A stretch of 32,537 nt of DNA. Source: an uncultured Clostridia bacterium. GTDB lineage: Bacteria; Bacillota; Clostridia; Christensenellales; Pumilibacteraceae. The notes beneath the pieces are model-generated. The model was not told the DNA's origin, ran no database searches, and worked only from the letters and a program-made list of their open reading frames with translations. Shown here piece by piece: positions 513-30,234 of this stretch. Position 1 is the stretch's first letter, and each line of letters starts with the position of its first letter. The stretch covers positions 1 to 32,537 of the forward strand of contig CALWBH010000093.1 in assembly GCA_944376015.1 (NCBI GenBank), written 5' to 3'. A program made the position numbers and the translations under genes.

Positions 513-2009
513 TTAGTTTTTACTAACTTCGCTCATCATCGAATAGCAGTTTTTAAGCGCGGGATAAAGCGAGCGGAACACGGCGTAACGTTTTTCGTAA
601 GCCGCTACGCGCGTTTCGTCCGGTTGCGTCGAGCCGGCTTCCGTCGCGAACTTTTTCGCGGCGGTGCGGACGTCCGTATATTCTCCGCACGCGACCATCG
701 CAAGTATGGCGGCGCCGTATGCGGGTCCCTCGTCCACGCTCAGACGTCTGACTTTTACGTTAAGCACGTCGGCTATTATCTGCCGCCACAGCGCGCTTTT
801 GGCTCCGCCGCCGCAAACGCTGACCGAGGTAAACTTTATGCCGTTCTTGCGCACTGCTTCCGCGCAGTCGCGAAGCGCGAACGCCACGCCTTCGAGCACG
901 GCGAGCGTCATGTGCTTTCTCGTGGTGTCGGGGCGCATGCCTATAAACGCTCCGCGCGCGTCTACGTCGTTATGCGGACTGCGCTCGCCCATAAGGTAAG
1001 GCAGAAAATAAACGTGATTGTTTCCGCAAATTTCTTCCGCGCCCGCCTGTTCGGCGACATAATCTTTGGTGCCGAGTATGCCGTCCGCCCACCAGGAATT
1101 ACAGCTCGCGGCGGAAAGTATACAGCCCATCAGATGATAACTGCCGTTTGCGTGGCAGAAACTGTGCAGCGCGTTGTTTTCGGGAAGAACGAACCTGTCG
1201 CTCGAAATAAATATCGTACCGCTTGTGCCGAGCGAAATATTGCAATCGCCGTCGCATACCGTACCCGTTCCGACGGCAGCCGCGGCATTGTCGCCCGCGC
1301 CAGCGCATACGGTAACGTCTTCGGAAAGTCCGAGCTCGCGCGCTACGTCCGGTCTGAGTTTGCCCGCTATTTCGTAAGACTCTTTGATTTCGGGCAGCCA
1401 TTCCGCTTTCGCGCCGGAAAACGCGCACGCATCCTCGCTCCATCTGCGGTTTTTCACGTCGAAGAACAGCGTGCCGCTCGCGTCCGAAACGTCTGTAACG
1501 CGCTTGCCGCAAAGCCTGTATACGAGATAGTCTTTGGGTAACAGTACGGAAGAAATACGCGAGTAAAGCTCGGGTTCGTTTTCACGCATCCACATCAGTT
1601 TGGGTGCGGTAAAGCCCGCGTATGCGATATTAGCCGTACACGCGGACAACCTGTCTTTACCTATGACGCCGTTCAGATACTCGGTCTGAGCCGCGCTTCG
1701 CCCGTCGTTCCAGAGTATCGCGGGGCGAAGCACTGCACCGTCTCCGCCCAAAGCGACCAGACCGTGCATTTGCCCGCCGAAAGATATACCGCGTACTCGC
1801 GAAGCGTCGCGACCGCCGATCAGCGCCTTAACGCCGCGGCAAACGGCGGCGTACCAGTCTTCGGGATCCTGCTCGCTCCACCCGCCTTTGGGATAATGCA
1901 CGGGATAAGTCTGCAGACTGTCTGCGATCAGACTGCCGTCGGCGCCGACGAGAAGGAATTTCGCACCGCTCGTGCCGAGATCTATACCTATGTATTCGTT
2001 CATGCTCAT
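513..2009 (-). CDS. xylB: Xylulokinase
   Basis: FGGY-family carbohydrate kinase, 498 aa from the ATG at 2009. It phosphorylates D-xylulose to xylulose 5-phosphate with ATP, sending xylose carbon into the pentose phosphate pathway. The N-terminal phosphate-binding motif is [14 protein letters not shown] (from residue 5). The conserved WSEQDP lies near 44, and [11 protein letters not shown] near residue 240 carries the expected catalytic Asp. [18 protein letters not shown] is the FGGY C-terminal signature. The start overlaps the xylA stop as ATGA, implying translational coupling. A second in-frame ATG sits two codons later (2003), so the exact start is uncertain by two residues. An upstream extension of the open frame lies inside xylA and is not credible. 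Length and motifs are typical for the family. Confidence 0.95.
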
Positions 2010-3328
2010 TTGCCGAACATCACTTCGTTCATGACGGATTCCAGCATTTCCTGACGTCCGCTGGAAGGGATACGGCAAGCGCCGAGTTTATCCGCGTACT
2101 CCGCAAGCTCTTTGAGCGAAGTATTGCCGGAAATTATTTTTTTGCCTATTTCGGTATCGGTGAAACTCGAATAGCGCGCTTTGATAAACTCGTCCATACG
2201 CCCGTCTTCTATAAGCGCGGCGGCTTTAAGCAGACCGAGCGCAAAAGTATCCATACCGAGTATGTAAGCAAGGAACATATCCTCTACCGTATTGGACGCG
2301 CGACGGGTCTTCGCGTCGAAATTGAATCCGCCGGTAAGACCGCCGGCTTTAAGCACTTCGTACATACAATGCGTAGCCGAGTAAGCGTCGAACGGGAATT
2401 CGTCGGTATCCCAACCGAGCAGATAATCGCCCTGATTGGCGTCTATCGAACCGAGCATTCCGTTGATCGCGCTTACACGCAACTCGTGCTCGAAGGTATG
2501 CCCCGCGAGCGTGGCGTGGTTCGCTTCGATATTCATCTTGAAATCTTTGTCCAGACCGTGCGCGCGAAGGAATCCGATAGCCGTCGCCGCGTCGAAATCA
2601 TACTGATGTTTCATGGGCTCTTTCGGCTTGGGTTCGATATAGAAATCGCCCTTGAAGCCTATCGAACGTCCGTATTCGACCGCCATTTTCATAAGACGCG
2701 CTATATTTTCCTGTTCGAACGCCACGTCGGTGTTGAGCAGAGTGTCATAGCCTTCTCTGCCGCCCCAGAACACGTATCCTCTGCCGCCGAGCTTTACGGT
2801 AATGTCAAGCGCTTTTTTCACCTGCGCCGCCGCGAAAGCGAACACGTCCGCCGTATCGGTGGAGCCTGCGCCGTTTTTATAACGGGGATTGGAGAACATA
2901 TTCGCCGTACCCCACAAACACTTGATGTCCGTTCCCTTCGCTTTTTCGAGAATATAATCGGATATTTCGTCCAGACGGCGGTTTGTCTCCTTTATGTCGT
3001 CCGCTTCGGGCACGAGGTCGACATCGTGAAAGCAGTAATACTTTATTCCGAGCTTGCGCATAAACTCGAAGCCTGCGTCCACTTTCGCTTTTGCGTGCTC
3101 CATCGTTCCGGGTTTCGCGCCGAAACTTTTATCGGTAGTACCTCTGCCGAACATATCCGTTCCGTCGGCGCCGAGATTATGCCACCACGCCATTGCGAAA
3201 GGAAGATGCTCGCTCATCTTCTTTCCCATAACCACCTTGTCTGCGTCATAAAATTTGAACGCAAACGCATTCTTGCTCCCCGCGCCTTCGTATTTGATAA
3301 CGGGAATATTCTTAAAAATTTCTTTCAT
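2006..3328 (-). CDS. xylA: Xylose isomerase
   Basis: Converts D-xylose to D-xylulose in the cytoplasm as a metal-dependent TIM barrel. The 440-aa length is that of class II xylose isomerases. From ATG 3328 the catalytic pair falls at His101 and Asp104 in CFHDVD, the classical numbering. Other family signatures are [14 protein letters not shown], the metal and substrate site around [32 protein letters not shown], and [17 protein letters not shown]. The start was chosen because AGGGGG lies six bases upstream of ATG 3328; the open frame continues upstream but has no such site and would cross the promoter region. First gene of xylA-xylB-GH43, transcribed from the promoter at 3413-3441. No transport or regulator gene for xylose is visible in the window. 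Confidence 0.97.
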
Positions 3329-3412
3329 AAGCGCCCCCTGCGTTTTAATTCGGCTTTCATCGATGCGGTTGCGACCGTCGAGACGCGCGCCGTCTTTATT
3401 TATTACATGTTT

Positions 3413-3441
3413 ATTATAATACATAAAATTACGGCAATCAA
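3413..3441 (-). promoter_or_regulatory. Sigma-A promoter of the xylA operon
   Basis: On the minus strand TTGATT (3441-3436) is followed after exactly 17 bases by a perfect TATAAT (3418-3413). This predicts a transcript start near 3406 and a 5' leader of about 78 nt before xylA. No clear operator palindrome was found, so catabolite or XylR control cannot be claimed. Confidence 0.8.
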
Positions 3442-18960: not shown

Positions 18961-19001
18961 AAAGAAAAAGGCGTAAACGGAGTCCGAACTCCGTTTACGC
19001 C
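18961..19001 (-). terminator. Strong terminator closing the surface-lipoprotein operon
   Basis: A perfect 14-bp stem (18970-18983 with 18988-19001) has a 4-nt loop and is followed on the minus strand by TTTTTCTTTTG. It begins 16 bp past the stop of the LRR lipoprotein at 19017. Confidence 0.92.
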
Positions 19002-19016
19002 GCCACTGCTTTTCTT

Positions 19017-20249
19017 TCAGGAAAGCACCGTTTTTGCGGTAAGTTCGATATAGTCGACATTCATGCCGAGATATCCGACGGTTTCAAAAGATATCGTATT
19101 TTCTCCTTCGTCGAGAGAAATCTCGGCAACTTCATACGTTTGCCAATTATACCAATTGAAATCGGCTCCCGGACTGAGTATGGTAAAGTCTTCCGTTATC
19201 GCTGCCGTTCCGTTTACGGTAAGCTTGAGAAATTCGGAGAACGGAACGTCGGAAGAATGTCTGCCTACGCATATTGCAAGAGAGACTTTCGTCGAAGAAA
19301 CGGAATTAACCTTAAATTCGATCACCTTGCCCGAACCGCCGCCGCCCGCGCTGATAAACGCGTTGCCGCTTGCCCCGCTCGTCGCGTCCGTCATCGGGCT
19401 CCAACCCGAAAGCGTAGCGTTTTCGCATTCATACCTGTAAGTTTGAGCTTTTCCGTAAAGCTTCCACGTCTTACCGTTAACGTTTACGTCGGACGGTTCG
19501 CCAAGCGAAGAAATGTACGCGCCCGGAGATATACCGGCGTCAAGATAAATAAGTCCTACTTTCCCGAACAGACCTCCGCAAGCGTCCTCGTCCGTAGCCA
19601 AAGCGCTTACCGATCCGCTTTCGACATAAAGCACGTTAAGCGAGTCGCAACCGTCAAAGGCGTCGGCGCCTATACTCTTTACTTCCGCGCCGATGTATAT
19701 CTCTTTTAAAGACGTCACGTTATTAAAAGCCCTATCCGATATTTTAGTTCCTATTCCCGCCGTTACCAGCGAAGCCGGAAGATAATAAAGCGCGAATTCT
19801 TTATCCGCATAGTACTGTTTTACCGCGACGCAATCGGCATACATCTTCTGTCCGAACACGTATCCGAACATAGCGCTCTCTCCCGTAGCGTTAGACGAGC
19901 TACCCGTGAAAGGAAGAACGATATTCCGAAGTGCGGAACAACCGCCGAACGCCCCTTGCCCGATTGCGGTCACGCTGTTCGGAACGGTAATCGAAGTAAG
20001 CGATATATTGCCCGAAAATGCGTTTGCCGCTATTTCCTTAACCGGTTTGCCGTTATATTCGGCAGGTACGGAAACCGATTCGCCCTTCCCCGCGTAACTC
20101 ATAACGACATAATAATCGCCTTCCGACGAAAGTTCGTAGACAAAGCCGTTTGTCGGCTGCTCCCCGCAAGCCGTCATACAAAATACGGAAACGCCTAAAA
20201 TAAGTGCGGTAATTATCGCTATTGCGATTGTTTTAGATATCCTCTTCAT
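19017..20249 (-). CDS. Leucine-rich-repeat lipoprotein with C-terminal CBM-like domain (A)
   Basis: A 410-aa predicted surface lipoprotein. The signal peptide ends in MTAC (Cys28). Residues about 38-240 hold BspA-type LRR_5 repeats (VKEIAANAFSGNISLTSITVPNSV, AIGQGAFGGCSALRNIVLP, ISDRAFNNVTSLKEIYIG, SIGADAFDGCDSLNVLYVE). Residues about 270-405 form a beta-sandwich-like domain resembling CBM6/CBM35: YECENATLSG, SAGGGGSGKVIEFKVN, SEFLKLTVNG, ISLDEGENTISFE, NVDYIEL. BspA repeats bind proteins or surfaces, and CBM domains bind sugars; the real ligand is unknown. The start overlaps the stop of the preceding gene as ATGA and has GGAGG seven bases upstream. It is the last gene of the group and a paralogue of the protein before it. 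Confidence 0.88.
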   Translation of the reverse strand: MKRISKTIAIAIITALILGVSVFCMTACGEQPTNGFVYELSSEGDYYVVMSYAGKGESVSVPAEYNGKPVKEIAANAFSGNISLTSITVPNSVTAIGQGAFGGCSALRNIVLPFTGSSSNATGESAMFGYVFGQKMYADCVAVKQYYADKEFALYYLPASLVTAGIGTKISDRAFNNVTSLKEIYIGAEVKSIGADAFDGCDSLNVLYVESGSVSALATDEDACGGLFGKVGLIYLDAGISPGAYISSLGEPSDVNVNGKTWKLYGKAQTYRYECENATLSGWSPMTDATSGASGNAFISAGGGGSGKVIEFKVNSVSSTKVSLAICVGRHSSDVPFSEFLKLTVNGTAAITEDFTILSPGADFNWYNWQTYEVAEISLDEGENTISFETVGYLGMNVDYIELTAKTVLS

Positions 20250-21541
20250 GCCGATACCTCCGCGGTTTTTATTTCGGTGCCTTTAACCGATTTAAGGTAA
20301 ATGCAATCGAAGTTGGACGCTATGCCCTCTATCGCGCAAGTTCTGAATGTTATTGTATTGACCTCGTCCGCTTTAAGATCGATCGCCGAAAGCGCGTATT
20401 CCTGCCAATTCGCCCATGTTACGGTGTCGCAAGGCGCCACGGCAAAATCAGGAACCGTAACGCGTTCCCCGTTCACGTAAAGTTCCATAAGTTCGGAAAA
20501 CATTATATATCCGTTGGGATGTCCGCCGAGTCTTATCGAAAGCATAGCCGTAGCGTCAGACGAAACGGTAAACCCGAAAGTCACCGATTTTCCGCTGCCG
20601 CCGTTGCCGAACCCGACGTATTTGTTCCCGCTGCTTGTGTCCGAATCGCCTATGAGCGCGCCGTCAAGCGTTGCGTTTTCCGCTTCGAACGTCAGTTTTT
20701 CGAACGCCGATTCGTAATCGAGCACGTCGTATTTCGTCCCGTCCACCAGACCGCGCTCGGTTATAGCCATCGCGTTAAGAAAATCGCTCCGCTCGGAAGC
20801 TACGACGTTCTCGGAAACGTAAAGATTGTCGCAGTTACCCGCCAGCCCGCCGTAAGAAGAAAGTCCGGTTATTCCTTTCGCTATGGCGGGACTGCAAACG
20901 TAAAGATCGCTGAATGACGAACAGCCCGCAAACACGTTGGCATCTATCTCGTTCACACGCTCTCCGAGCACCACCGAACGCAGACCCGTCATGCCGTAAA
21001 AGGATCCGTAATTCAGCTTTTCTCCCCTGAATACGACCTTTTCCAACGATGTGGGTATATAATAAGTCGAATAATCCTCGTCTTCGTTGTATACCTGATC
21101 GGTAGGAACGGAATTGGGATATGACGAACTTCCGAAAATATAACCGAATACCGATTTGGCGCGCGTCGCCCCGACAGATTCTCCTATAAAAGGAACGGAT
21201 ATCTCGCGCAAACCCGTGCAGCCCGTAAAAGCGCCTTTTCCTATGTTCGTAATGCTGTCGGGAATATTGACGGACGTAAGCGTCGTACAGTTCTTAAACG
21301 CTTTCTGATTTATCGCTTTAACGGGCAGTCCTTCGTATTGCGCGGGAATACTCAGTTCGCTCCCCGTAAAATTGATCGTACCCGTGACGACGTAGAACTG
21401 TTTGTCGTTACTTATGGTAAGCACAAGCCCACCTGTGTCTTCGTCGGCTTCCTGCTTTCCGCAGGCGGTAATCGACAACGCGAATACCGCCATACATACA
21501 AGCAGAACCAACGCCAATAATTTTTTTAACTTATTCTTCAT
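20246..21541 (-). CDS. Leucine-rich-repeat lipoprotein with C-terminal CBM-like domain (B)
   Basis: A 431-aa paralogue of the next gene with the same plan. The signal peptide ends in ITAC (Cys27). BspA-type LRR_5 repeats follow at about 60-250 (AINQKAFKNCTTLTSVNIPD, NIGKGAFTGCTGLREISVP, INEIDANVFAGCSSF-type turns). The C-terminal CBM6/35-like domain occupies about 290-425: FEAENATLDG, GNGGSGKSVTFGF, SELMELYVNG, WQEYALSAIDL, NTITFRT, NFDCIYL. Both paralogues share an odd inserted segment after the second repeat (GATRAKSVFGYIFGSS here, SAMFGYVFGQ in the sister), so they arose by duplication. The start ATG 21541 has GGAG six bases upstream; an earlier TTG would fall on the ribosome binding site itself. 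It ends in ATGA overlap with the sister gene. Confidence 0.88.
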   Translation of the reverse strand: MKNKLKKLLALVLLVCMAVFALSITACGKQEADEDTGGLVLTISNDKQFYVVTGTINFTGSELSIPAQYEGLPVKAINQKAFKNCTTLTSVNIPDSITNIGKGAFTGCTGLREISVPFIGESVGATRAKSVFGYIFGSSSYPNSVPTDQVYNEDEDYSTYYIPTSLEKVVFRGEKLNYGSFYGMTGLRSVVLGERVNEIDANVFAGCSSFSDLYVCSPAIAKGITGLSSYGGLAGNCDNLYVSENVVASERSDFLNAMAITERGLVDGTKYDVLDYESAFEKLTFEAENATLDGALIGDSDTSSGNKYVGFGNGGSGKSVTFGFTVSSDATAMLSIRLGGHPNGYIMFSELMELYVNGERVTVPDFAVAPCDTVTWANWQEYALSAIDLKADEVNTITFRTCAIEGIASNFDCIYLKSVKGTEIKTAEVSA

Positions 21542-21562
21542 CTCTGTCTCCAATAGTCGCGC

Positions 21563-22822
21563 TTACGCCTGACCCGCGCTTATCTCGACTCCTGCGGTTG
21601 TCAGTTTTATACTCTTGAAGTTATATGCTATATTATCATTGTTGCTCTTGGATGTGAAAGTTATCGTGTTCGCTCCTTCCCGAAGCTGTATGTTGCCCAG
21701 ACTGCCGTCGCGGAATTCTTCCCAACCCGCACTCTCGGGAGTGAAATCGGTATAACCCGCATAAGGAGTATTATTAACGGTTATGTCGTAAAGCTGACTT
21801 ATGGGAAGTCCCGTGCCTTCTTTTGCAAGCGACATTATAAGCTCCGCTTCGCATGCCGCGGACGAATTTATCGTGAAGGTTACCACCGCGCCGCCCGCAG
21901 CCGTTCCGCCAAGATATCCGTTCGGATTTGCGTTTACTCCCGAATACGTCGCGTCTACCGCATTGAATACGGTACGGTTTTCCGTTTTTCCGCATACTAC
22001 GCAGCTATGGCTGTCTTTTCCGCTCGCGTCGCTCCACTCGCCCCACGAATGTTCTCCGAGTCCTCCGCTCGTGAACGTTTCCGTTCCGTTTGCTCCGCAT
22101 ACGCAGGACTTGTAGTACACTGCGGGAGACGTGCAGGTTGCCGCGCTCTTCAAGTATTCGTCTTTTATCACTTCCCGATCATAGACGTGCGCCGCAAGCT
22201 CGCCGTACTCTTCGCCGCATTCTTTGCATTCCGCTTTCTCGGTGCAGGTAGCCGTACCGCCGCTGTGCGCCTCTTTTCCTTCCGTCGCGTCGCAGTTAGC
22301 GCACTTATACCAATGTCCGGACGCGTCGTGCTGAAGTACGGTATACGAATGTGCAAGCGCGCTGCCGCTTTCGAACGTTTCCGTTCCCTTCTCGCCGCAT
22401 ACGCAGGACTTGTAGTACACCGCCGGCGACGTGCAGGTTGCCGCGCTCTTCAAGTATTCGTCTTTTACCACTTCCCGATCATAGACGTGCGCCGCAAGCT
22501 CGCCGTATTCTTCGCCGCAGACCGCACATTCCGCTTTCGCGGTGCAGGTAGCCGTACCGCCGCTGTGCCCCGTGGCTTCGACTACTACGGGCGCGCTTAT
22601 TTCGTTTTTACCGTTTTCGTCCGAAAACATTTTTCCGCAGCCGTCGCACTTCCAATATGCTTCATAGCCGTCTTGCGTGCATGTTGCCGCTTTTTCCGTC
22701 ACAGCGGTCAGTTCGTGAGTGTGTGCCGCGGGCGCTTCTTCTCCGCACGCGGTCATTATTACCGACCCGAAGACCAGTACTGCCGCGATCGCCATTACAA
22801 TCCAAAATTTGATTTTTTTCAT
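21563..22822 (-). CDS. Lipoprotein with Cys-x-x-Cys repeats and C-terminal CBM-like domain
   Basis: A 419-aa surface lipoprotein. The signal peptide ends in MTAC (Cys26). Residues 34-285 are Cys-rich, His-rich repeats of a type common in clostridial surface proteins: TCTQDGYEAYWKCDGCGKMF (about 48), then two 100-residue units (86-185 and 186-285), each with CxxC pairs such as AECAVCGEEYGE, YYKSCVCG and YKCANCD. These may bind metal or form small zinc-ribbon-like folds; that is inference. Residues about 286-412 resemble the terminal domains of the two LRR neighbours (VDATYSGVNAN, GAVVTFTIN, SQLYDITVNN, IQLREGANTITF). AAGGAG follows directly after the GH3 stop, seven bases from ATG 22822, so the genes are tightly coupled. 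Confidence 0.85.
   Translation of the reverse strand: MKKIKFWIVMAIAAVLVFGSVIMTACGEEAPAAHTHELTAVTEKAATCTQDGYEAYWKCDGCGKMFSDENGKNEISAPVVVEATGHSGGTATCTAKAECAVCGEEYGELAAHVYDREVVKDEYLKSAATCTSPAVYYKSCVCGEKGTETFESGSALAHSYTVLQHDASGHWYKCANCDATEGKEAHSGGTATCTEKAECKECGEEYGELAAHVYDREVIKDEYLKSAATCTSPAVYYKSCVCGANGTETFTSGGLGEHSWGEWSDASGKDSHSCVVCGKTENRTVFNAVDATYSGVNANPNGYLGGTAAGGAVVTFTINSSAACEAELIMSLAKEGTGLPISQLYDITVNNTPYAGYTDFTPESAGWEEFRDGSLGNIQLREGANTITFTSKSNNDNIAYNFKSIKLTTAGVEISAGQA
22064..22567. repeat. Two near-identical 204-bp direct repeats, 300 bp apart, inside the Cys-rich lipoprotein gene
   Basis: Copies 22364-22567 and 22064-22267 encode residues 86-153 and 186-253, matching at 61 of 68 residues with long identical DNA runs. 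The intervening 32 codons are only distantly alike, so the two 100-codon units are much more similar in their first two thirds than in the rest. Confidence 0.9.
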
Positions 22823-22835
22823 CTTTTTACTCCTT

Positions 22836-25800
22836 TTACATCGACTGTGAATAATCGAACTCCTGTTTTTTTAATTTATCTGCGCGTTTTTTTAAAACAA
22901 AACCGAGTACCGACATAACAGTACAGCCCAATGCGCAGACGGCAAATAACACTTGAATCGAAATTATGAGAACCTGCCACCACGGCATTACTTTGACGAA
23001 GACGTCGGTTACCGAAACTCCGTTCATCGCGTTGGAGTGAAGCTGAGTGTAAAGTATGCGTTTGCACGCTTCGCGAACGGCAAGACGAACGTAATTATTG
23101 TTTTCGTAAGGCTTGAAAGCTTCGGGATTCGTCGTGGGCATCCAATAGTCGTTGCCTGCGAGAATACCCGCGGCATACGCTTCCGCCGATTGCATATGCG
23201 GACCGGCGCCCGCGTCTGTCTCCATAATGCCGACAAAGCCCCATTCGTTGCGAAGCACGTCCGTCATCAGTCCTTTGTGAGCGCCCGCCCAAATCGCGCC
23301 GATTCTGTTGAGAGAGGACATAAGACCGTTGGCTTTACCTTTGACAACGCCCGTTTCGAAGGGTTTGAGATAAATTTCTCTGATAGTCTGTTCGTTCGCC
23401 CAGGTGGATATACCGCAACGCGCGTCTTCCTGTTCGTTAAGCGCAAAATGTTTTGCGAATACAATCACGCCCATTTCGATAAGCCCCTTTACTTCGCTTG
23501 CGAACATCTCTCCGGAAATATAAGGATCTTCGCTGTAATACTCCCAATTTCTGCCGCCGAGCGGAGACCTGTGCATATTAACGCCTGGTCCGTAAAGTCC
23601 CGTAATGCCTGCGTGCAGACAGTCCATGCCGAAACTGCGACCGACTTCGTATACGAGTTTGTTATTAAACGTCTGAGCAAGCAGTACTTCGTTGGGATAT
23701 GCCATATAGTTATCGAGAGAAGTAGCCGCCATTATCCCCTGCGGACCGTCCTTGCTCTTTCCGCCGGGAGCGCCCACGGTTGCGGAGCCGCAAATATTGA
23801 GATAGCCCGAAGTAACCATTTCGTTCTGTTCGCGCCAGGTCATCTGATCGAGCAGCTTTTCCCACTCCTCGTTTTTGTAATCCATATTGATCATCATTGC
23901 GAGATTATAACCGTTGTCGGCGCCGTAAACGGGCGACGGAACTTCGTCGTTCGTTTTTTCGACTACTCCGCCGTACTGCATATCGCGAACGAAAACGCTG
24001 TTCGTGCATTTAAGGCTTACGGGAGCTTTCGGGTAAGATCTTTCCCAGTTGTCTCTCGTGAGATACTCGATCTTCTGGTCGGAAGTGCCCTCGTAAAGGT
24101 TGATGTCGGCGTTATCGAAACGGTTGGTTATTTCGGTATTTGCGGAATACGAATACTTCTCGTAATCGTCTGCCGCGACGTTTATTTTCTCGCAAAGCGC
24201 TTTGTTGCCCGAGACGGCATCGCCGTTTGCGTCGTACATTCCGCTCTTGCCTTTTTCGGCAAGAATATTGTTAAGCGCGTCGTGAGCGTCAAAGCCGGTC
24301 GCAATGTAGTAGTCGCCCGCTTCGAGAATATAAGTTTTTTTACCGTAAGAATCGTAAGTTTTAAAGCTCTCTTCGGGAATGAACACGGAGACTTTTTCAC
24401 GGTCGCCTGGATTGAGCGTTTTGGTTTTTGCGTATCCCGCGAGCTCTACGGACGCCTTTTCTATACCGACCCGAACGTCGTAATCGGTATAAGGTTTCTG
24501 GACGTATATCTGCACTACTTCCTTGCCCGAATTGGAGTTACCCGTAACGTTACCGTTATTTCGCACGTCGAGAGTTACTTCCCAACCGCCGTCGACAGCC
24601 TTGACCTCGTAGTTTTCATAAACGAAATCGGCGTAAGTTTCGCCCCATCCGAAAGGATAAGCGACTTCGTCGGAATATTTCCAATTCCCGCTGCCTGCCG
24701 TAACTCCGACGGACGTCGAAGCGGAAGGGTTACCGAGAATACAGTCCTCGTACCGCGTTTCGTAATAACGGTATCCGACATAAATTCCTTCCTGATAAAC
24801 GACGTACTTGTCGTTATGAGAGTACGGCGAGTATGCGGGAACGTCTCCCGAAAGCTCGGTAAACGTACTGTGTCCGAAATTGACGGACGACGGCGCGGAG
24901 TAACTGTCGTATACGAAGGTATCGGTAAGTCTGCCCGAAGGCGGGATTTTTCCGCTGAGAGCCGCCGCGACGCCTTCGCAGGAAGCGCGACCGCCTATGC
25001 CGACATAAACGCACGCGTCGATATCGTAAGTCACGATATGTTTGAGCGACATCGGGTTCGTGGTATTGAGCAGCAATACTACGCTGTCAAGTTTGCCCTG
25101 CGCTTTGAGATTGCATATACCTTTGAGCATACCCGCTTCTTCTTCGGTCAAATCCAGATAATCGTTATCCGTATAATTGACGGAATTCGTATAATCGCCG
25201 GCATAAGAGCGCAGCCAGTTAAGATCTCCCGCTTCGCCCGAATTTCTCGATATAGCCATAATCCCTACGCCGCCCTCTACGGACGCTATCGCGTCGGAAG
25301 ATATCGATGTAAATGGCACTTCGTTCACGATAAAATTGTGAAACTTGTGATCCATCGTACCCGCCGACCACGAAACGGAGTTATAGAATATGCCGTACTG
25401 TCCGTCGGGAATATCGCGGTAATATCTCCAAAGAGTTCCGTTCACCGAATAATCGAGATCTTCGAAAGCGGTTTTAAGATTGACTGCGTTTTTAACTTCC
25501 ATCTGACCCGATCCGACGCCCGAATACAGCCAGTTTTGCGAAGTAATACCGAAAAAGTTCAGTTCGTCGCTTGTCTTTACCGGCAATGCGCCGTCATTCC
25601 AAAGCACGACGCTGCCTTCCGCAACGGCTTGGGTAGACACCTCCATCGCGTATTCGCGCTGAGAATCGTCATCGAAACCGCCGACGTAATCCATAAAATC
25701 CGTTTCTGCGTTCGTTATCGTTTCACCGCCCTCTTTGCTGATACGTTTGTATGGATTTATACCGAGAAAACCGTTTATGGAATTCGCGTTGTCCGCCGCT

Positions 25801-25892
25801 ATGGATCCGCCGATTGCTATAACAATCGACCACACTATAAAAAATATCGCCAACAATACCCAAACCGATTTGGCTACAAAAATCTTACGCAT
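22836..25892 (-). CDS. Permuted family 3 glycoside hydrolase with a membrane anchor at each end
   Basis: A 1018-aa enzyme, probably a beta-glycosidase facing outward. An N-terminal TM (7-29) is followed by the domain that is normally C-terminal: VAEGSVVLWNDGALPV (about 91), SGVGSGQMEV, SRNSGEAGD with likely acid/base Glu220, and GKIPPSGRLTDTF (about 314). A fibronectin-III-like part follows (YPFGWGETYADF about 412; ends about 535). The barrel domain comes last: KDGPQGI (about 714), GPGVNMHRSPLGGRNWEYYSEDP (768-790), KHFALNEQE (814-822) and GFVGIMETDAG with nucleophile Asp893. A second TM lies at about 972-1000, then KKRADKLKKQ. Start ATG 25892 has AAGGAGG six bases upstream and overlaps the 88-aa protein gene by 8 bp. 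All catalytic motifs are intact; the substrate is not known. Confidence 0.93.
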   Translation of the reverse strand: MRKIFVAKSVWVLLAIFFIVWSIVIAIGGSIAADNANSINGFLGINPYKRISKEGGETITNAETDFMDYVGGFDDDSQREYAMEVSTQAVAEGSVVLWNDGALPVKTSDELNFFGITSQNWLYSGVGSGQMEVKNAVNLKTAFEDLDYSVNGTLWRYYRDIPDGQYGIFYNSVSWSAGTMDHKFHNFIVNEVPFTSISSDAIASVEGGVGIMAISRNSGEAGDLNWLRSYAGDYTNSVNYTDNDYLDLTEEEAGMLKGICNLKAQGKLDSVVLLLNTTNPMSLKHIVTYDIDACVYVGIGGRASCEGVAAALSGKIPPSGRLTDTFVYDSYSAPSSVNFGHSTFTELSGDVPAYSPYSHNDKYVVYQEGIYVGYRYYETRYEDCILGNPSASTSVGVTAGSGNWKYSDEVAYPFGWGETYADFVYENYEVKAVDGGWEVTLDVRNNGNVTGNSNSGKEVVQIYVQKPYTDYDVRVGIEKASVELAGYAKTKTLNPGDREKVSVFIPEESFKTYDSYGKKTYILEAGDYYIATGFDAHDALNNILAEKGKSGMYDANGDAVSGNKALCEKINVAADDYEKYSYSANTEITNRFDNADINLYEGTSDQKIEYLTRDNWERSYPKAPVSLKCTNSVFVRDMQYGGVVEKTNDEVPSPVYGADNGYNLAMMINMDYKNEEWEKLLDQMTWREQNEMVTSGYLNICGSATVGAPGGKSKDGPQGIMAATSLDNYMAYPNEVLLAQTFNNKLVYEVGRSFGMDCLHAGITGLYGPGVNMHRSPLGGRNWEYYSEDPYISGEMFASEVKGLIEMGVIVFAKHFALNEQEDARCGISTWANEQTIREIYLKPFETGVVKGKANGLMSSLNRIGAIWAGAHKGLMTDVLRNEWGFVGIMETDAGAGPHMQSAEAYAAGILAGNDYWMPTTNPEAFKPYENNNYVRLAVREACKRILYTQLHSNAMNGVSVTDVFVKVMPWWQVLIISIQVLFAVCALGCTVMSVLGFVLKKRADKLKKQEFDYSQSM

Positions 25893-26151
25893 CGTTTTCC
25901 TCCTTCGGTTCACGATGAGTAGCGCGTTTTTTTATAATATAAAAAACTATACTCATTACAAAAAGCGCAACGAGCAAACAGTCAGTTATAAATAAAAAAG
26001 TTTGCCAACTCGTCTGGAATAAAGTTACGGTGTTGTTCGTAGCGCCCGCTATGGCGCTCAATACGACGTAACCTGCCACCACCCCCGCCGTAATTAAAGA
26101 AATTACGATAGCAAGCGCGCCGGCGATTATGCCCCACGGCAATTTTTTCAT
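25885..26151 (-). CDS. Small two-TM membrane protein encoded before the GH3 enzyme
   Basis: An 88-aa protein of unknown family. TM1 spans about 6-30 (GIIAGALAIVISLITAGVVAG) with a continuation into YVVLSAIAGATNN, and TM2 about 53-73. A charged tail KKRATHREPKEENDA follows. The second half (SWQTFLFIT...VMSIVFYIIKKRA) resembles the C-terminal anchor of the GH3 enzyme downstream (WWQVLIISI...VMSVLGFVLKKRA). ATG 26151 was chosen because GGGAGG lies seven bases upstream; the earlier TTG precedes that site. It overlaps the GH3 start by 8 bp, so expression is coupled. First gene of the five-gene group behind the promoter at 26212-26240. A role as partner or anchor of the enzyme is inference. Confidence 0.8.
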   Translation of the reverse strand: MKKLPWGIIAGALAIVISLITAGVVAGYVVLSAIAGATNNTVTLFQTSWQTFLFITDCLLVALFVMSIVFYIIKKRATHREPKEENDA

Positions 26152-26176
26152 TAATTGACCTCCCTTCAAATGCTAA

Positions 26177-26193
26177 TGCGTATAAATTACGCA
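26177..26193. promoter_or_regulatory. Palindrome in the leader of the GH3 operon
   Basis: TGCGTA and TACGCA, a perfect 6-bp inverted repeat with a 5-base centre, lies between the promoter and the ribosome binding site of the 88-aa protein gene, about 20 bp downstream of the -10. It could be an operator or a small RNA hairpin. Confidence 0.4.
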
Positions 26194-26211
26194 AAAGTGT
26201 TTTCGAAGAGA

Positions 26212-26240
26212 AGCATAACAACGGTTACGCTTTATGTCAA
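26212..26240 (-). promoter_or_regulatory. Promoter of the GH3/lipoprotein operon
   Basis: TTGACA (26240-26235), 17 bases, TATGCT (26217-26212) on the minus strand, just downstream of the kinase stop. The weak -10 fits an activated promoter. AACGTTCGT, which matches the nonamer bound by AgrA-type LytTR regulators, lies upstream of the -35 at about 26250-26258, and an imperfect copy, ACCGTTGTT, lies in the spacer; their 34-bp spacing is not the canonical one. Confidence 0.6.
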
Positions 26241-26275
26241 TATGCTTTGCACGAACGTTGCGGATAAATGCATAT

Positions 26276-27619
26276 TCATTGCTCCGAAGACGGCGGAATC
26301 GGTATAAGCACGGCGAGATTGAATATGCCGTCGTCGATATATATCTGCATGGTTCCGCCGTATTTTTCAACTATCATTTTCATGCTCTTAACGCCGAAAC
26401 CATGATACATTACGTCTGTTTTTGTCGTTTTGGGCAGACCGTTTTCAAAAGAAATGATACCCGAATAGGCATTGTAAATATTTAACGTTACAAGACCGCC
26501 TTTTGCATAAAGATTAAGCCCGATTATTCGATTTTCCACTTCGTCCAACTTCATTACCGCGTCGATGGCATTATCGAGCGCGTTGCCGAAAAGCGAATAT
26601 ACGTCGGTATCGCTCATAAATGCTATCTTTTCGCCGTCCGCCATACAGGTAAGCGTTATTCCGTTACCGTTGCATTTAATACTTTTTTCGGTAAGTATGG
26701 TATCGAGCACTTCGTTACCCGTTTTTATGTTCGAATCATACAACGAAATATATTTTTCCAGCTCCTCGATCGTTTCTCCGGGAATGGAGCGCGTTTGACC
26801 GAATCGGCGTATTTGATGCCGCATATCGTGACATTTGAGATTGAACAGATCTATGTTTTCCTTGGTAAGCTCGTATTGTTCCTTTCTCTGATGCCACAAG
26901 GTTTTCAACATATCTCTCTCGTCTTCCGCTTTCTTGGCTCTGACAAGTCCGAACTGCAAAGAAAGCAAAAGTATACAGCACAAGCAATTGTAAATGTAAA
27001 TTATAATGTTGGCGGCAATACCGCCGTCTACGATTAAATACACAAATACGGAATTCAGAAAAATATCTACTATAAGACCCACTCCGACTATAACGAAAAG
27101 CCATATATTGCCTACGACCAACGCCTGCGATTTTTTTATCTGTCTTGCGAACAAAAACCACCCTACCATATAGGAGGATAAGTAGCACGCGAAAGAAAGC
27201 GCGACGAGAAATACCGTTTCCTTGCTGAGAGACGACCAGTCCACTACCTTGTCCGAATATATTCCGAGCAAAGGACTTTTGGCGCTCATAACCGAAGTCA
27301 TTACAAGATTAGAAAGCTCGTAAGCGAAATGTTGCAACGTATATGCGGCGATAGCGCAGAACAGTATGTTTATTATAGGTTCCTTAAAGCAAAACAAAAA
27401 CATGCCTACCGTGGCGGCAAAAATGCACAAGTAAGCGAACGACATATACAGTACGTTATAGATCATCGGGAAAAAAACGGCAAAAATCAAAGAAACCGCA
27501 AAATGAGCGACGCACCGCAAAATAAATTTATCCCGCTTTTTAAGACGGAACATAAACATATATTCCGCGACAAGAAGCTCGGCAAGAAATATAAGCTTTC
27601 CGAATAACGCGCTAGACAT
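26276..27619 (-). CDS. GHKL (AgrC-type) sensor histidine kinase
   Basis: A 447-aa membrane kinase. The N-terminal half (about 1-215) has about six or seven hydrophobic helices with little extracellular loop, typical of AgrC/VirS-type sensors of peptides or small membrane-soluble signals. The cytoplasmic part has a coiled stretch, the H-box NLKCHDMRHQIRRF with the likely phosphorylated His, and a GHKL ATPase domain: SLFGNALDNAIDAVMKL (N-box) and GFGVKSMKMIVEKYGGTM (G-box). The start ATG 27619 has AAGGAG seven bases upstream and overlaps the response-regulator stop by 8 bp. It is the evident partner of that regulator. No AgrD-like signal-peptide gene or AgrB is seen nearby, so the signal is unknown. 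Confidence 0.92.
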   Translation of the reverse strand: MSSALFGKLIFLAELLVAEYMFMFRLKKRDKFILRCVAHFAVSLIFAVFFPMIYNVLYMSFAYLCIFAATVGMFLFCFKEPIINILFCAIAAYTLQHFAYELSNLVMTSVMSAKSPLLGIYSDKVVDWSSLSKETVFLVALSFACYLSSYMVGWFLFARQIKKSQALVVGNIWLFVIVGVGLIVDIFLNSVFVYLIVDGGIAANIIIYIYNCLCCILLLSLQFGLVRAKKAEDERDMLKTLWHQRKEQYELTKENIDLFNLKCHDMRHQIRRFGQTRSIPGETIEELEKYISLYDSNIKTGNEVLDTILTEKSIKCNGNGITLTCMADGEKIAFMSDTDVYSLFGNALDNAIDAVMKLDEVENRIIGLNLYAKGGLVTLNIYNAYSGIISFENGLPKTTKTDVMYHGFGVKSMKMIVEKYGGTMQIYIDDGIFNLAVLIPIPPSSEQ

Positions 27620-28346
27620 TTTCAAACTCCTTTCTTCCCGCAAGCCAGCTGTTAAGCTTGTTCAAAAATTCATTGCGTTTAAGATGCGAGATCAAAAGTA
27701 TATCTCCGCCTACGTCGGCCTGATACTGTTGCACGCCGTTTACGTACGCAAGGTTAACGAGATAACATCTGTTGCATAATGCGAACGGCAAACCCTTGAA
27801 CTGCTCTATCGCTTTCAACATACTGCCGTTCGTATGTATATCGCCGTTTACCGTATGATAAATAAGATCGTGCTTCATTACTTCGACGTACTTTATATCG
27901 CTTGATAATATTTTGCGCTGTCCGCCGTTTACGTTTATCCAAATACCTCGGCCGCGGGTATTTTCCAGACGCGTAAGCGCCCTCGTAAGTTTTACGGAAA
28001 AATTAAAATATGCCACGGGTTTAACTATAAAATCGAAAGCGTCGTATTCGTAACCGTTAACGGCGTACTGAGCGAGATTGGTCACAAATATTATCATCAC
28101 GTTTTTATCCCGTTGCCTGAGCATTTTTACGGTTTCCATACCGTTTTTTCCGGGCATATCGATATCCATGAGAACCATATCGAAACTACCGTCGTACTTT
28201 TCCAGAAAAATATCTCCGCTCGCAAACATCTCGACGTCAAAAAGCGTGCCTTTTTCCGCAGAGTATCTTTTGAAATACTCTACGTTCTTTTCCGCCGCGC
28301 CGCAGTCGTCTTCAACTATTGCAATTCTAATCTTTCCGTTCTCCAT
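27612..28346 (-). CDS. LytTR-family response regulator
   Basis: A 244-aa DNA-binding regulator. The receiver domain (1-120) has the acidic pocket Glu12-Asp13-Asp14, phospho-acceptor Asp61 (MVLMDIDMPG), the switch Thr89 (FVTN) and Lys109 (VKP). The C-terminal LytTR domain (about 135-240) shows SSDIKYVEVMKHDLIYHT, HTNGSMLKAIEQ, FALCNRCYLVNLAYVNGV and the terminal LLISHLKRNEFLNKL. LytTR regulators typically control extracellular products such as bacteriocins, toxins and surface proteins. The nearest target is the GH3/lipoprotein operon just downstream. The gene is first of the RR-HK pair, from the promoter at 28404-28432. Confidence 0.95.
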   Translation of the reverse strand: MENGKIRIAIVEDDCGAAEKNVEYFKRYSAEKGTLFDVEMFASGDIFLEKYDGSFDMVLMDIDMPGKNGMETVKMLRQRDKNVMIIFVTNLAQYAVNGYEYDAFDFIVKPVAYFNFSVKLTRALTRLENTRGRGIWINVNGGQRKILSSDIKYVEVMKHDLIYHTVNGDIHTNGSMLKAIEQFKGLPFALCNRCYLVNLAYVNGVQQYQADVGGDILLISHLKRNEFLNKLNSWLAGRKEFENV

Positions 28347-28403
28347 ATTTACCTTTACGATAACCCGTACATTAATTTACAAAATTTAGTCGAAATTTTT
28401 TTT

Positions 28404-28432
28404 ATAATAAAAAATAATACGCCGTTTGTCAA
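28404..28432 (-). promoter_or_regulatory. Promoter of the LytTR two-component genes
   Basis: TTGACA (28432-28427), 17 bases, TATTAT (28409-28404) on the minus strand. A 14-bp palindrome, AAACAT/ATGTTT with a 2-base centre (28439-28452), lies just upstream of the -35 and could be an operator. The rest of 28453-28583 shows nothing I can name. Confidence 0.75.
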
Positions 28433-28583: not shown

Positions 28584-29411
28584 TCAGATAATTGAAAACT
28601 CGTCTAAAATCTCCCCGCACTCCTCCCATTCGGGAAATTTCACGGGGTAAATGTGGATGTATTTTTCGCCGTGGGCGTTTTTCTTGGGTTTATAATCGAG
28701 CTTAAACGGATAGCCGCGCTCGGTCAGCAGTTCGGCAAAACGCTTTGTGGACTTTTTAAGGAAATCGCCTTCCGAGCTCGTCATAAATATTTTCGGCGGA
28801 GCGTAAACCTCAAAAAGCTTGCGCAGATCGGTATATTCGCGCCATTCGCCCTTTCCCTTGCCTATCGACAGCCCCGCGAGACCGTTAATTCGTCTCGAGC
28901 TGAAACTGTACATACCCGAAATCAGGAAAAGCCCGTCCGCCGCCGCGCCGCACATTCCGTCAAGCCCGTAAGCCGCGCGCACCTTTCCCGACTTTGCCGC
29001 GCCGTCCGCAAGCAGCGCGAGAAGCGCGCCCGCGCTGTCGCCGACTATGACCGTCCGTAATCCTTTTTTCTCGGTATGCGGCGCGTTTTTCTGTGCGAAA
29101 GCCACCGCCTTGCATGTCTGCCGCACCTGTTCGACAAAAGCGTATTCGGGCGCAAGCCCGTAATTAATGTTGGCTACGCAAAAACCTCGGAGCGCAAGCG
29201 CGTAACAAAACCGCTTGTTAAGCTCTTTATTGCCGTATACCAGCCCGCCGCCGTGTATATCCACGATAAGCGGCAGGTTTTCCCCGCCGTCGGGATAATA
29301 AAAATCCAGCGTTTCCGCCTTGTCGTCGCCGTAAGGCACGTCGGTAACCGCCGTCACGCCGCGCGGCAAAGTCGCGCCGCGCTCGCACTTCGCGTCGAAT
29401 TTCGACATCAT
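28584..29411 (-). CDS. Alpha/beta hydrolase (hormone-sensitive-lipase-like)
   Basis: A serine hydrolase of about 275 aa. The oxyanion-hole motif DIHGGGLVYGN, a family-typical NINYGLAPEYAF, and the nucleophile elbow VGDSAGALLALLADG (GDSAG) are plain. Later candidates for the acid and base are in SSEGDFLKK and AHGEKYIHIYPVKFPEWEE. There is no signal peptide, so it is cytoplasmic. Such enzymes hydrolyse esters; the substrate is not known. The start is uncertain: ATG 29411 (or 29408) is the first ATG but has no clear ribosome binding site. TTG codons at 29447 and 29498 would add 12 or 29 residues and overlap the upstream membrane-protein gene. It is probably cotranscribed with that gene. Confidence 0.85.
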   Translation of the reverse strand: MMSKFDAKCERGATLPRGVTAVTDVPYGDDKAETLDFYYPDGGENLPLIVDIHGGGLVYGNKELNKRFCYALALRGFCVANINYGLAPEYAFVEQVRQTCKAVAFAQKNAPHTEKKGLRTVIVGDSAGALLALLADGAAKSGKVRAAYGLDGMCGAAADGLFLISGMYSFSSRRINGLAGLSIGKGKGEWREYTDLRKLFEVYAPPKIFMTSSEGDFLKKSTKRFAELLTERGYPFKLDYKPKKNAHGEKYIHIYPVKFPEWEECGEILDEFSII

Positions 29412-29436
29412 TCGGCAGGTCAAGTTTTTAAGGATT

Positions 29437-30234
29437 TTACGAAACAATATCCTTTCCGTCCTTCTTTTTTCTGTATGTTTCGGCGTTGTTTTCGACAAGC
29501 CGTTCGGTAAATTTCAGTTTTGTTTCCCGTTTTTTCATGTCCTCGCCTATGCGCGCCGTAACGAACAGATATATGCAGTATATCGCGGGCAGACCGAGAT
29601 TGGTTTCCATAAGGGAGTTGGTAACGAGCACGCGAAGCTGCTCGGCAAATTCCATACCGCCCGAACGCACGCCGCCGAGAAGCAAAGTTGCTTCCCAGCC
29701 GAGCTGAACGGCTACGCCTATGACGAACAGCCACAGCAGACGGAGCCGCTCGGTTTTTTCTTTGCGTGTAAGATTGTATACGATAGCCGCGAAATAGCTT
29801 ACGGCAAGAAATACCGCCATGAACCAGTGATAATCCCCCGTTTCACGCCATATCTTTATCTGCATGCCGTCGCCCGTCAACGCGTCGTCTATCATCGGAC
29901 ACACTATCCACCATACGAGTATAAGCAACGTCCATTCGACGATATGCTCGTCCTTGCGCAGGCACAGCCATATCCACGCAAAGTTGGTTATGCCGTAACT
30001 GAGCGACATCCACAGCAGTACCCAGAACATGTTCCCGTTTTCGATATGCCGCGAACCGGTCAGTAAATGGAATATGCCGTAATCCACTATAAAATAAAGC
30101 ACGCCGCCCGCAAGCGCGAAAAGCAGCGTTAACCTGCGCTTCGTCGCGAAAAGCAGCGCGCAGAAAAACAAAATGAATATCGAGTCGAGTACTATATACG
30201 AAAGCCCGAAAGTCCTTTGCGCTATTACGTCCAT
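29437..30234 (-). CDS. Multi-pass membrane protein of unknown function
   Basis: A 265-aa integral membrane protein with about seven hydrophobic helices and short loops, and a basic cytoplasmic C-terminus (RIGEDMKKRETKLKFTER... KKKDGKD). Conserved-looking polar residues within membrane regions include FIVDYGIFHLLTG, SYGITNFAWIWL, WWIVCPMIDD, VQLGWEATLLLGG and MEATN-like SLMETNLGLPAIY. I recognise no family. The start ATG 30234 follows GGGGAG closely. The downstream hydrolase gene begins 25-60 bp away or overlaps, suggesting a shared transcript from the promoter at 30352-30380. An enzyme or sensor role cannot be separated on sequence alone. Confidence 0.8.
   Translation of the reverse strand: MDVIAQRTFGLSYIVLDSIFILFFCALLFATKRRLTLLFALAGGVLYFIVDYGIFHLLTGSRHIENGNMFWVLLWMSLSYGITNFAWIWLCLRKDEHIVEWTLLILVWWIVCPMIDDALTGDGMQIKIWRETGDYHWFMAVFLAVSYFAAIVYNLTRKEKTERLRLLWLFVIGVAVQLGWEATLLLGGVRSGGMEFAEQLRVLVTNSLMETNLGLPAIYCIYLFVTARIGEDMKKRETKLKFTERLVENNAETYRKKKDGKDIVS

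Follow-up and report, generated by a model that had tools for sequence, protein, structure and literature searches.

In Butyrivibrio proteoclasticus B316, three LytTR regulators (PUL7, 21 and 33, where PUL stands for polysaccharide utilisation locus) each lie near a secreted glycoside hydrolase of family 3 (GH3) with a C-terminal transmembrane (TM) helix, and the authors proposed a common function for them together with the sensing of carbohydrate linkages (Kelly et al. 2010, PMC2914790). One Roseburia Gram-positive PUL (gpPUL), Ros-7, lists a LytTR response regulator (RR) and a histidine kinase (HK), and the listed gpPULs contain ABC, GPH or MFS transporters and mostly LacI or AraC regulators (PMC5320581). 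A permuted GH3 subfamily, represented by GlyA1, is likewise already known; the GlyA1 paper makes no mention of transmembrane segments or histidine kinases (PMC5104943). Here we analyse a seven-gene locus at positions 19017-28432 of a 32,537-nucleotide stretch (the window; contig CALWBH010000093.1, assembly GCA_944376015.1) from an uncultured Clostridia bacterium of the family Pumilibacteraceae, in which a GHKL kinase and its LytTR regulator precede a permuted, membrane-anchored GH3 and its accessory surface proteins. This locus is probably one unit of a repeated sensor-to-enzyme array that trims glycosides at the cell surface.

The likeness to B316 lies in a LytTR gene standing beside a secreted, C-terminally anchored GH3. 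However, B316 has three such copies per 4.4 Mb, in PULs described as including transporters, whereas the genus of the window carries up to 27 LytTR and 50 GH3 in less than 2 Mb, no carbohydrate transporter is found among the genes of 19017-28432, and the locus adds lipoproteins with CBM35-type domains, a genus-specific small membrane protein and module-specific repeats spaced by 21 bp. With the Gram-positive PULs the locus shares the grouping of a glycoside hydrolase gene with a transcriptional regulator; it differs from them in being transporter-less, though some relatives beyond the genus do have MFS_2 transporters. The original prediction knew of no named system with this gene set. That holds, although a LytTR regulator beside a secreted, anchored GH3 had been noted in 2010. 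We found no paper that joins these parts into a system, or that describes the array, the CBM35 lipoproteins, the small protein or the repeats, in a search outside which most subscription journals fell; these elements, including the likely operators, appear to be undescribed so far.

All seven genes are encoded on the minus strand. The RR (244 aa, 27612-28346; Pfam Response_reg 3e-17, LytTR 4e-9) is followed by the HK (~447 aa, 26276-27619; HATPase_c_5 5e-24), which has a polytopic N-terminal sensor domain and whose ATG overlaps the RR stop by 8 bp. A predicted five-gene operon comes next, starting with an 88-aa protein with two hydrophobic stretches (TM88, 25885-26151) and the GH3 (22836-25892), whose ATG overlaps the TM88 stop by 8 bp. 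Genes for three lipoproteins, A (21563-22822), B (20246-21541) and C (19017-20249), complete the operon, the last two (lrrB and lrrC) overlapping by 4 bp, and an intrinsic terminator with a 14-pair stem and a T-rich tail lies at 18970-19001. Promoter-like sites precede both groups: TTGACA-17-TATTAT (28404-28432, 11/12) upstream of the RR and TTGACA-17-TATGCT (26212-26240, 10/12, with TG preceding the second hexamer) upstream of the operon. The genes, order, overlaps, domains, promoter-like sites and terminator that had been read from the sequence are thus in place, and Pfam agrees with the domains; the idea of a LytTR/GHKL-linked surface glycan module lacking a transporter is supported by the recurrence described below.

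The locus had been viewed as a single case, which missed that it is one of about 20 in its own genome. This 1.63-Mb metagenome-assembled genome (MAG) yields ~29 GH3_N and 20 LytTR matches, and on its contigs the arrangement RR-HK-(small TM gene)-GH3 is seen ~12 times or more, counting partial copies truncated at contig ends. Many of its short contigs (L023, L025, L027, L029, L035, L038, L039 and others) end within GH3 genes, and most of its paralogues share just short stretches of ~80% DNA identity. Across 14 genomes of the genus the two families track each other closely, from 1 to 50 GH3 and from 0 to 27 LytTR (Pearson r=0.95), and the genomes that carry up to these numbers measure 1.1-1.8 Mb; eleven other sampled genera of the family have 0 LytTR and 0-4 GH3. 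In the well-assembled genomes G003 and G007, a same-strand GH3 gene lies within 12 kb downstream of 18/22 and 15/19 LytTR genes, respectively, compared with 3.1 and 1.7 expected under random placement. The concern that the module might be an accident of this locus is therefore settled for the core set, since the two-component genes and GH3 stand together far above chance.

The same arrangement extends beyond the genus. Among the nearest HK relatives in genomes of named species, six of seven loci have the order RR-HK-GH3, including those of a chicken-gut MAG, Candidatus Mediterraneibacter merdavium and a Bacillales MAG; L054, counted among these six, coincides with a locus of the genus genome G007. 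In a class sample of 291 genomes, HKs scoring at least 268 bits have a GH3 nearby in 8/10 loci (once on the opposite strand and once with the GH3 upstream), compared with 0/10 for HKs of at most 150 bits, which are ordinary AgrC-like kinases. In three outside loci the module holds GH78 or GH2 together with an MFS_2 sugar transporter, which ties it to glycoside use. In another family (L130, L132-L134), the same HK clade is found near paired GH3 genes.

In the sensor pair, the phospho-acceptor Asp is kept in 47/47 module RRs and the His of the KCHD motif in 47/47 module HKs. Pairwise distances correlate strongly between HK and RR (0.88) and modestly between HK and GH3 (0.34, p=0.0005), suggesting that the sensor pairs stay together while the enzymes are partly exchanged. 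With AgrC/AgrA-type GHKL-LytTR systems the module shares the conserved His motif, the GHKL ATPase domain, the polytopic sensor and the receiver-LytTR regulator, and its candidate operators show the spacing of ~21 bp between repeats that is generally known for those systems. This likeness raises the alternative that the kinase, like AgrC, detects quorum or neighbours and that the GH3 set serves social or competitive ends, such as the stripping of sugars from neighbours' glycans, and not a nutrient response. A polytopic GHKL kinase with a LytTR regulator is indeed the classical peptide-sensing pairing, and the HK has no recognisable sugar-binding sensor domain. Against this, no AgrB-type processing gene was detected by Pfam among the annotated proteins of the window (such a search may overlook a short AgrD-like peptide), the same HK clade is accompanied elsewhere by GH78 or GH2 and MFS_2 transporters, and the low-scoring AgrC-like relatives are not beside GH3, unlike the module clade, which is tied to it. 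We consider peptide signalling unlikely.

AgrA, ComE and other LytTR regulators recognise pairs of repeats that are separated by two turns of the helix and adjoin the -35 element. In the window, a candidate operator of this kind, GAATATGCA and GTTCGTGCA with a spacing of 21 bp, lies at 26248-26277 on the minus strand, just upstream of the -35 hexamer of the five-gene operon. We scanned 53 distinct regions between the HK and the next gene of the genus modules for direct repeats with at least 9/11 matches. Repeats at spacing 21 were found in 19/53 modules, compared with 1.4 expected from dinucleotide shuffles, and any other spacing in 0-4 of the 53 regions. In several modules the second copy stops a few bases 5' of a -35-like TTGA, and the repeat sequences vary from module to module.

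In the GH3, Pfam places GH3_C at residues 102-381, an Fn3-like domain at 465-540 and GH3_N at 737-930, which is the permuted, GlyA1-type order. The likeness to that subfamily comprises the order of sandwich, Fn3-like domain and barrel, the occurrence in gut Firmicutes and the catalytic Asp and Glu; the window enzyme differs in having TM anchors at both ends and in sitting behind a sensor pair. Since the hydrophobic segments lie at both the N-terminus (~13-41) and the C-terminus (~975-1008), the catalytic part should be extracellular. The nucleophile is Asp900 in the METDAG motif of the barrel and the acid/base residue is Glu227 in the NSGEAG motif of the sandwich (numbering from a GTG start). 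Because the Asp is kept in 79/87 and the Glu in 78/87 aligned GH3s, the remainder being mostly gaps, the module GH3s are probably working enzymes, and we discarded the idea that they are pseudoenzymes. A NagZ-type role in peptidoglycan recycling was likewise ruled out by the set of sandwich, Fn3 and barrel that marks the beta-glucosidase branch. In two places HK and GH3 share one reading frame. At L060 (3165-7781, in G003) both parts are full length, and an RBS-like stretch and an ATG are kept before the GH3 part, so that a lost stop codon or a sequence error is possible; at L028 (5120-8431, in the window's own genome) an apparent deletion has brought together an HK and a GH3 that are both truncated, and the RR is split. 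Neither was used as proof of a partnership.

The three lipoproteins had been described as carrying Cys-rich repeats (A) or BspA-type leucine-rich repeats (LRRs; B and C). These parts are indeed there (LRR_5 at 6.5e-18 in B and 1.1e-18 in C, C being a paralogue of B with 34% identity), but the C-terminal CBM35-type domains had been overlooked. These lie at 21566-22000 in A, 20249-20728 in B and 19020-19469 in C, and their 145-160 residues are mutually related. Taken alone, the window domains fall below the Pfam CBM cut-offs; a profile built from 17 such domains matches the CBM35 structure 2wz8 (E 1e-14), and the homologue L056 passes the cut-offs of both CBM_6 and CBM_35. In good agreement with this, AlphaFold2 predicts for one domain, with high confidence (pLDDT 88.8), a jelly roll whose best fold match in the PDB is the Clostridium thermocellum CBM35 2w1w (E 1.6e-8, TM 0.73/0.83). 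The domain is present in 23/63 open reading frames adjoining GH3 genes compared with 5/306 others on the same stretches (p=2e-15), and in several genes it is fused to GH3 itself. The expectation that the lipoproteins accompany the GH3 thus holds for the CBM35-type domain, which is their common part; the LRR and Cys-repeat parts differ between modules. Given this identity, the enrichment beside GH3 and the fusions, the lipoproteins are best read as predicted glycan-holding partners of the enzyme.

TM88 has no Pfam match above cut-off, and a search of 290 other genomes of the class at 1e-8 revealed no clear relatives outside the genus. Its clear members, confined to this genus, lie between HK and GH3 wherever both neighbours are visible, in line with the expectation that the small protein belongs to the set. 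GH3 and other proteins also give weak matches at their C-termini (L132-134, L153-156, L163-164); these may reflect no more than the likeness of TM helices in general and were disregarded. At a single locus, L161, TM88 is joined to the GH3 N-terminus. In one own-genome module (L045, ~3067-3297) the TM88 homologue has an in-frame TGA, with a pseudogene or a sequencing error among the possibilities. The simplest guess is that TM88 acts as a partner of the GH3 in its assembly or anchoring.

LytTR systems often control envelope functions, and the GH3s could accordingly trim the cell's own surface sugars or exopolysaccharide on envelope cues. Besides this general link, the lack of a transporter in the gene set would fit such a role, as would the neighbourhood of the HK clade in L132-L134, where it stands beside GGDEF, MCP, GH114 or GtrA-like genes in what is possibly an exopolysaccharide-like setting that keeps the role under consideration. 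However, CBM35 is typical of enzymes acting on plant and microbial polysaccharides, the divergence (~30-48% identity) and number (up to 50 per genome) of the GH3s fit varied external substrates better, and the contexts of GH78 or GH2 plus transporter in other lineages also speak against envelope remodelling, which we regard as improbable. That repeated segmental duplication within a single genus produced the association, with no regulatory meaning behind it, is hardly credible: the high copy numbers are genus-specific and many copies lie at contig ends, but the same gene order occurs in unrelated Clostridia and a Bacillales MAG, the class-wide HK-GH3 linkage depends on the HK score, the operator-like repeats keep to one spacing, and a LytTR-GH3 neighbourhood had been noted in Butyrivibrio in 2010 (PMC2914790).

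Several observations weigh against a regulated sensor-to-enzyme array. A clear spacing-21 repeat is lacking in 34/53 modules, and the candidate operator of the window is weak taken alone, its halves being 5/9 identical. An attempt to fit a common half-site matrix to all modules failed, converging on GC-rich sites that missed the evident repeats; the operator claim rests for this reason on the spacing of the repeats and not on a consensus. The differences between modules and the lack of a shared matrix are consistent with private operators and do not prove them. Two of the ten high-scoring HKs of other lineages have no nearby GH3, ~40% of the GH3s encoded by G003 and G007 lack a LytTR gene within 16 kb upstream, and the co-divergence of HK and GH3 is modest, so that enzymes may have been swapped among sensors.

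With these points taken into account, we still favour surface glycoside trimming under the control of the sensor pair. The membrane-bound GHKL kinase would sense an extracellular cue and phosphorylate its own LytTR regulator, which would then bind the direct-repeat pair just upstream of the -35 element of the following operon. The bound regulator would switch on the membrane-anchored, presumably exo-acting beta-glycosidase, with the accessory surface proteins produced alongside it: TM88 probably helping the GH3 to assemble or anchor, and the three CBM35-tipped lipoproteins keeping hold of the glycan on the outside of the cell. Sugar freed there would enter via a separately encoded transporter.

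The glycosidase repertoire of the genus is extremely one-sided. In four genomes (G000, G003, G007 and G010) there are 27-50 GH3 domains, whereas GH5 and the sugar-binding protein SBP_bac_1 are absent, GH43 occurs once per genome and MFS_2 once or twice. The window also encodes a xylulokinase and a xylose isomerase (513-3424, minus strand), which suggests a use for xylose freed by the GH3 enzymes. The scarcity of other hydrolases and transporters, the many GH3s and these two genes fit organisms that strip terminal sugars outside the cell and import monosaccharides. An esterase-like gene (BD-FAE/Abhydrolase_3, 28584-29498) lies upstream of the RR on the same strand, and the related module L128 is also accompanied by esterases.

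The diverged kinases, regulators and repeats at high copy number suggest that the channels are insulated from one another and that each serves a glycoside or linkage of its own. We put forward more tentatively, as a reading about as open to doubt as to belief, that ~20 insulated HK-RR pairs with their own operators each command their own surface GH3, often with CBM35 proteins, and that the array as a whole detects which glycosides are at hand and puts the corresponding enzyme on the surface, with no transporters dedicated to it, in a small-genome gut genus built around one enzyme family. If true, this would be a large paralogous two-component set with likely private operators and matched enzymes, and hence a natural test bed for the avoidance of crosstalk among related sensor pairs and for the co-evolution of sensor and enzyme specificity. 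The role suggested for the permuted, membrane-anchored GH3s of gut Clostridia would then be to carry out the response of a sensing system. Finally, the array would define a genus apparently specialised in the removal of terminal sugars, one that seems to fit a large number of individually switched surface enzymes into a very small genome.

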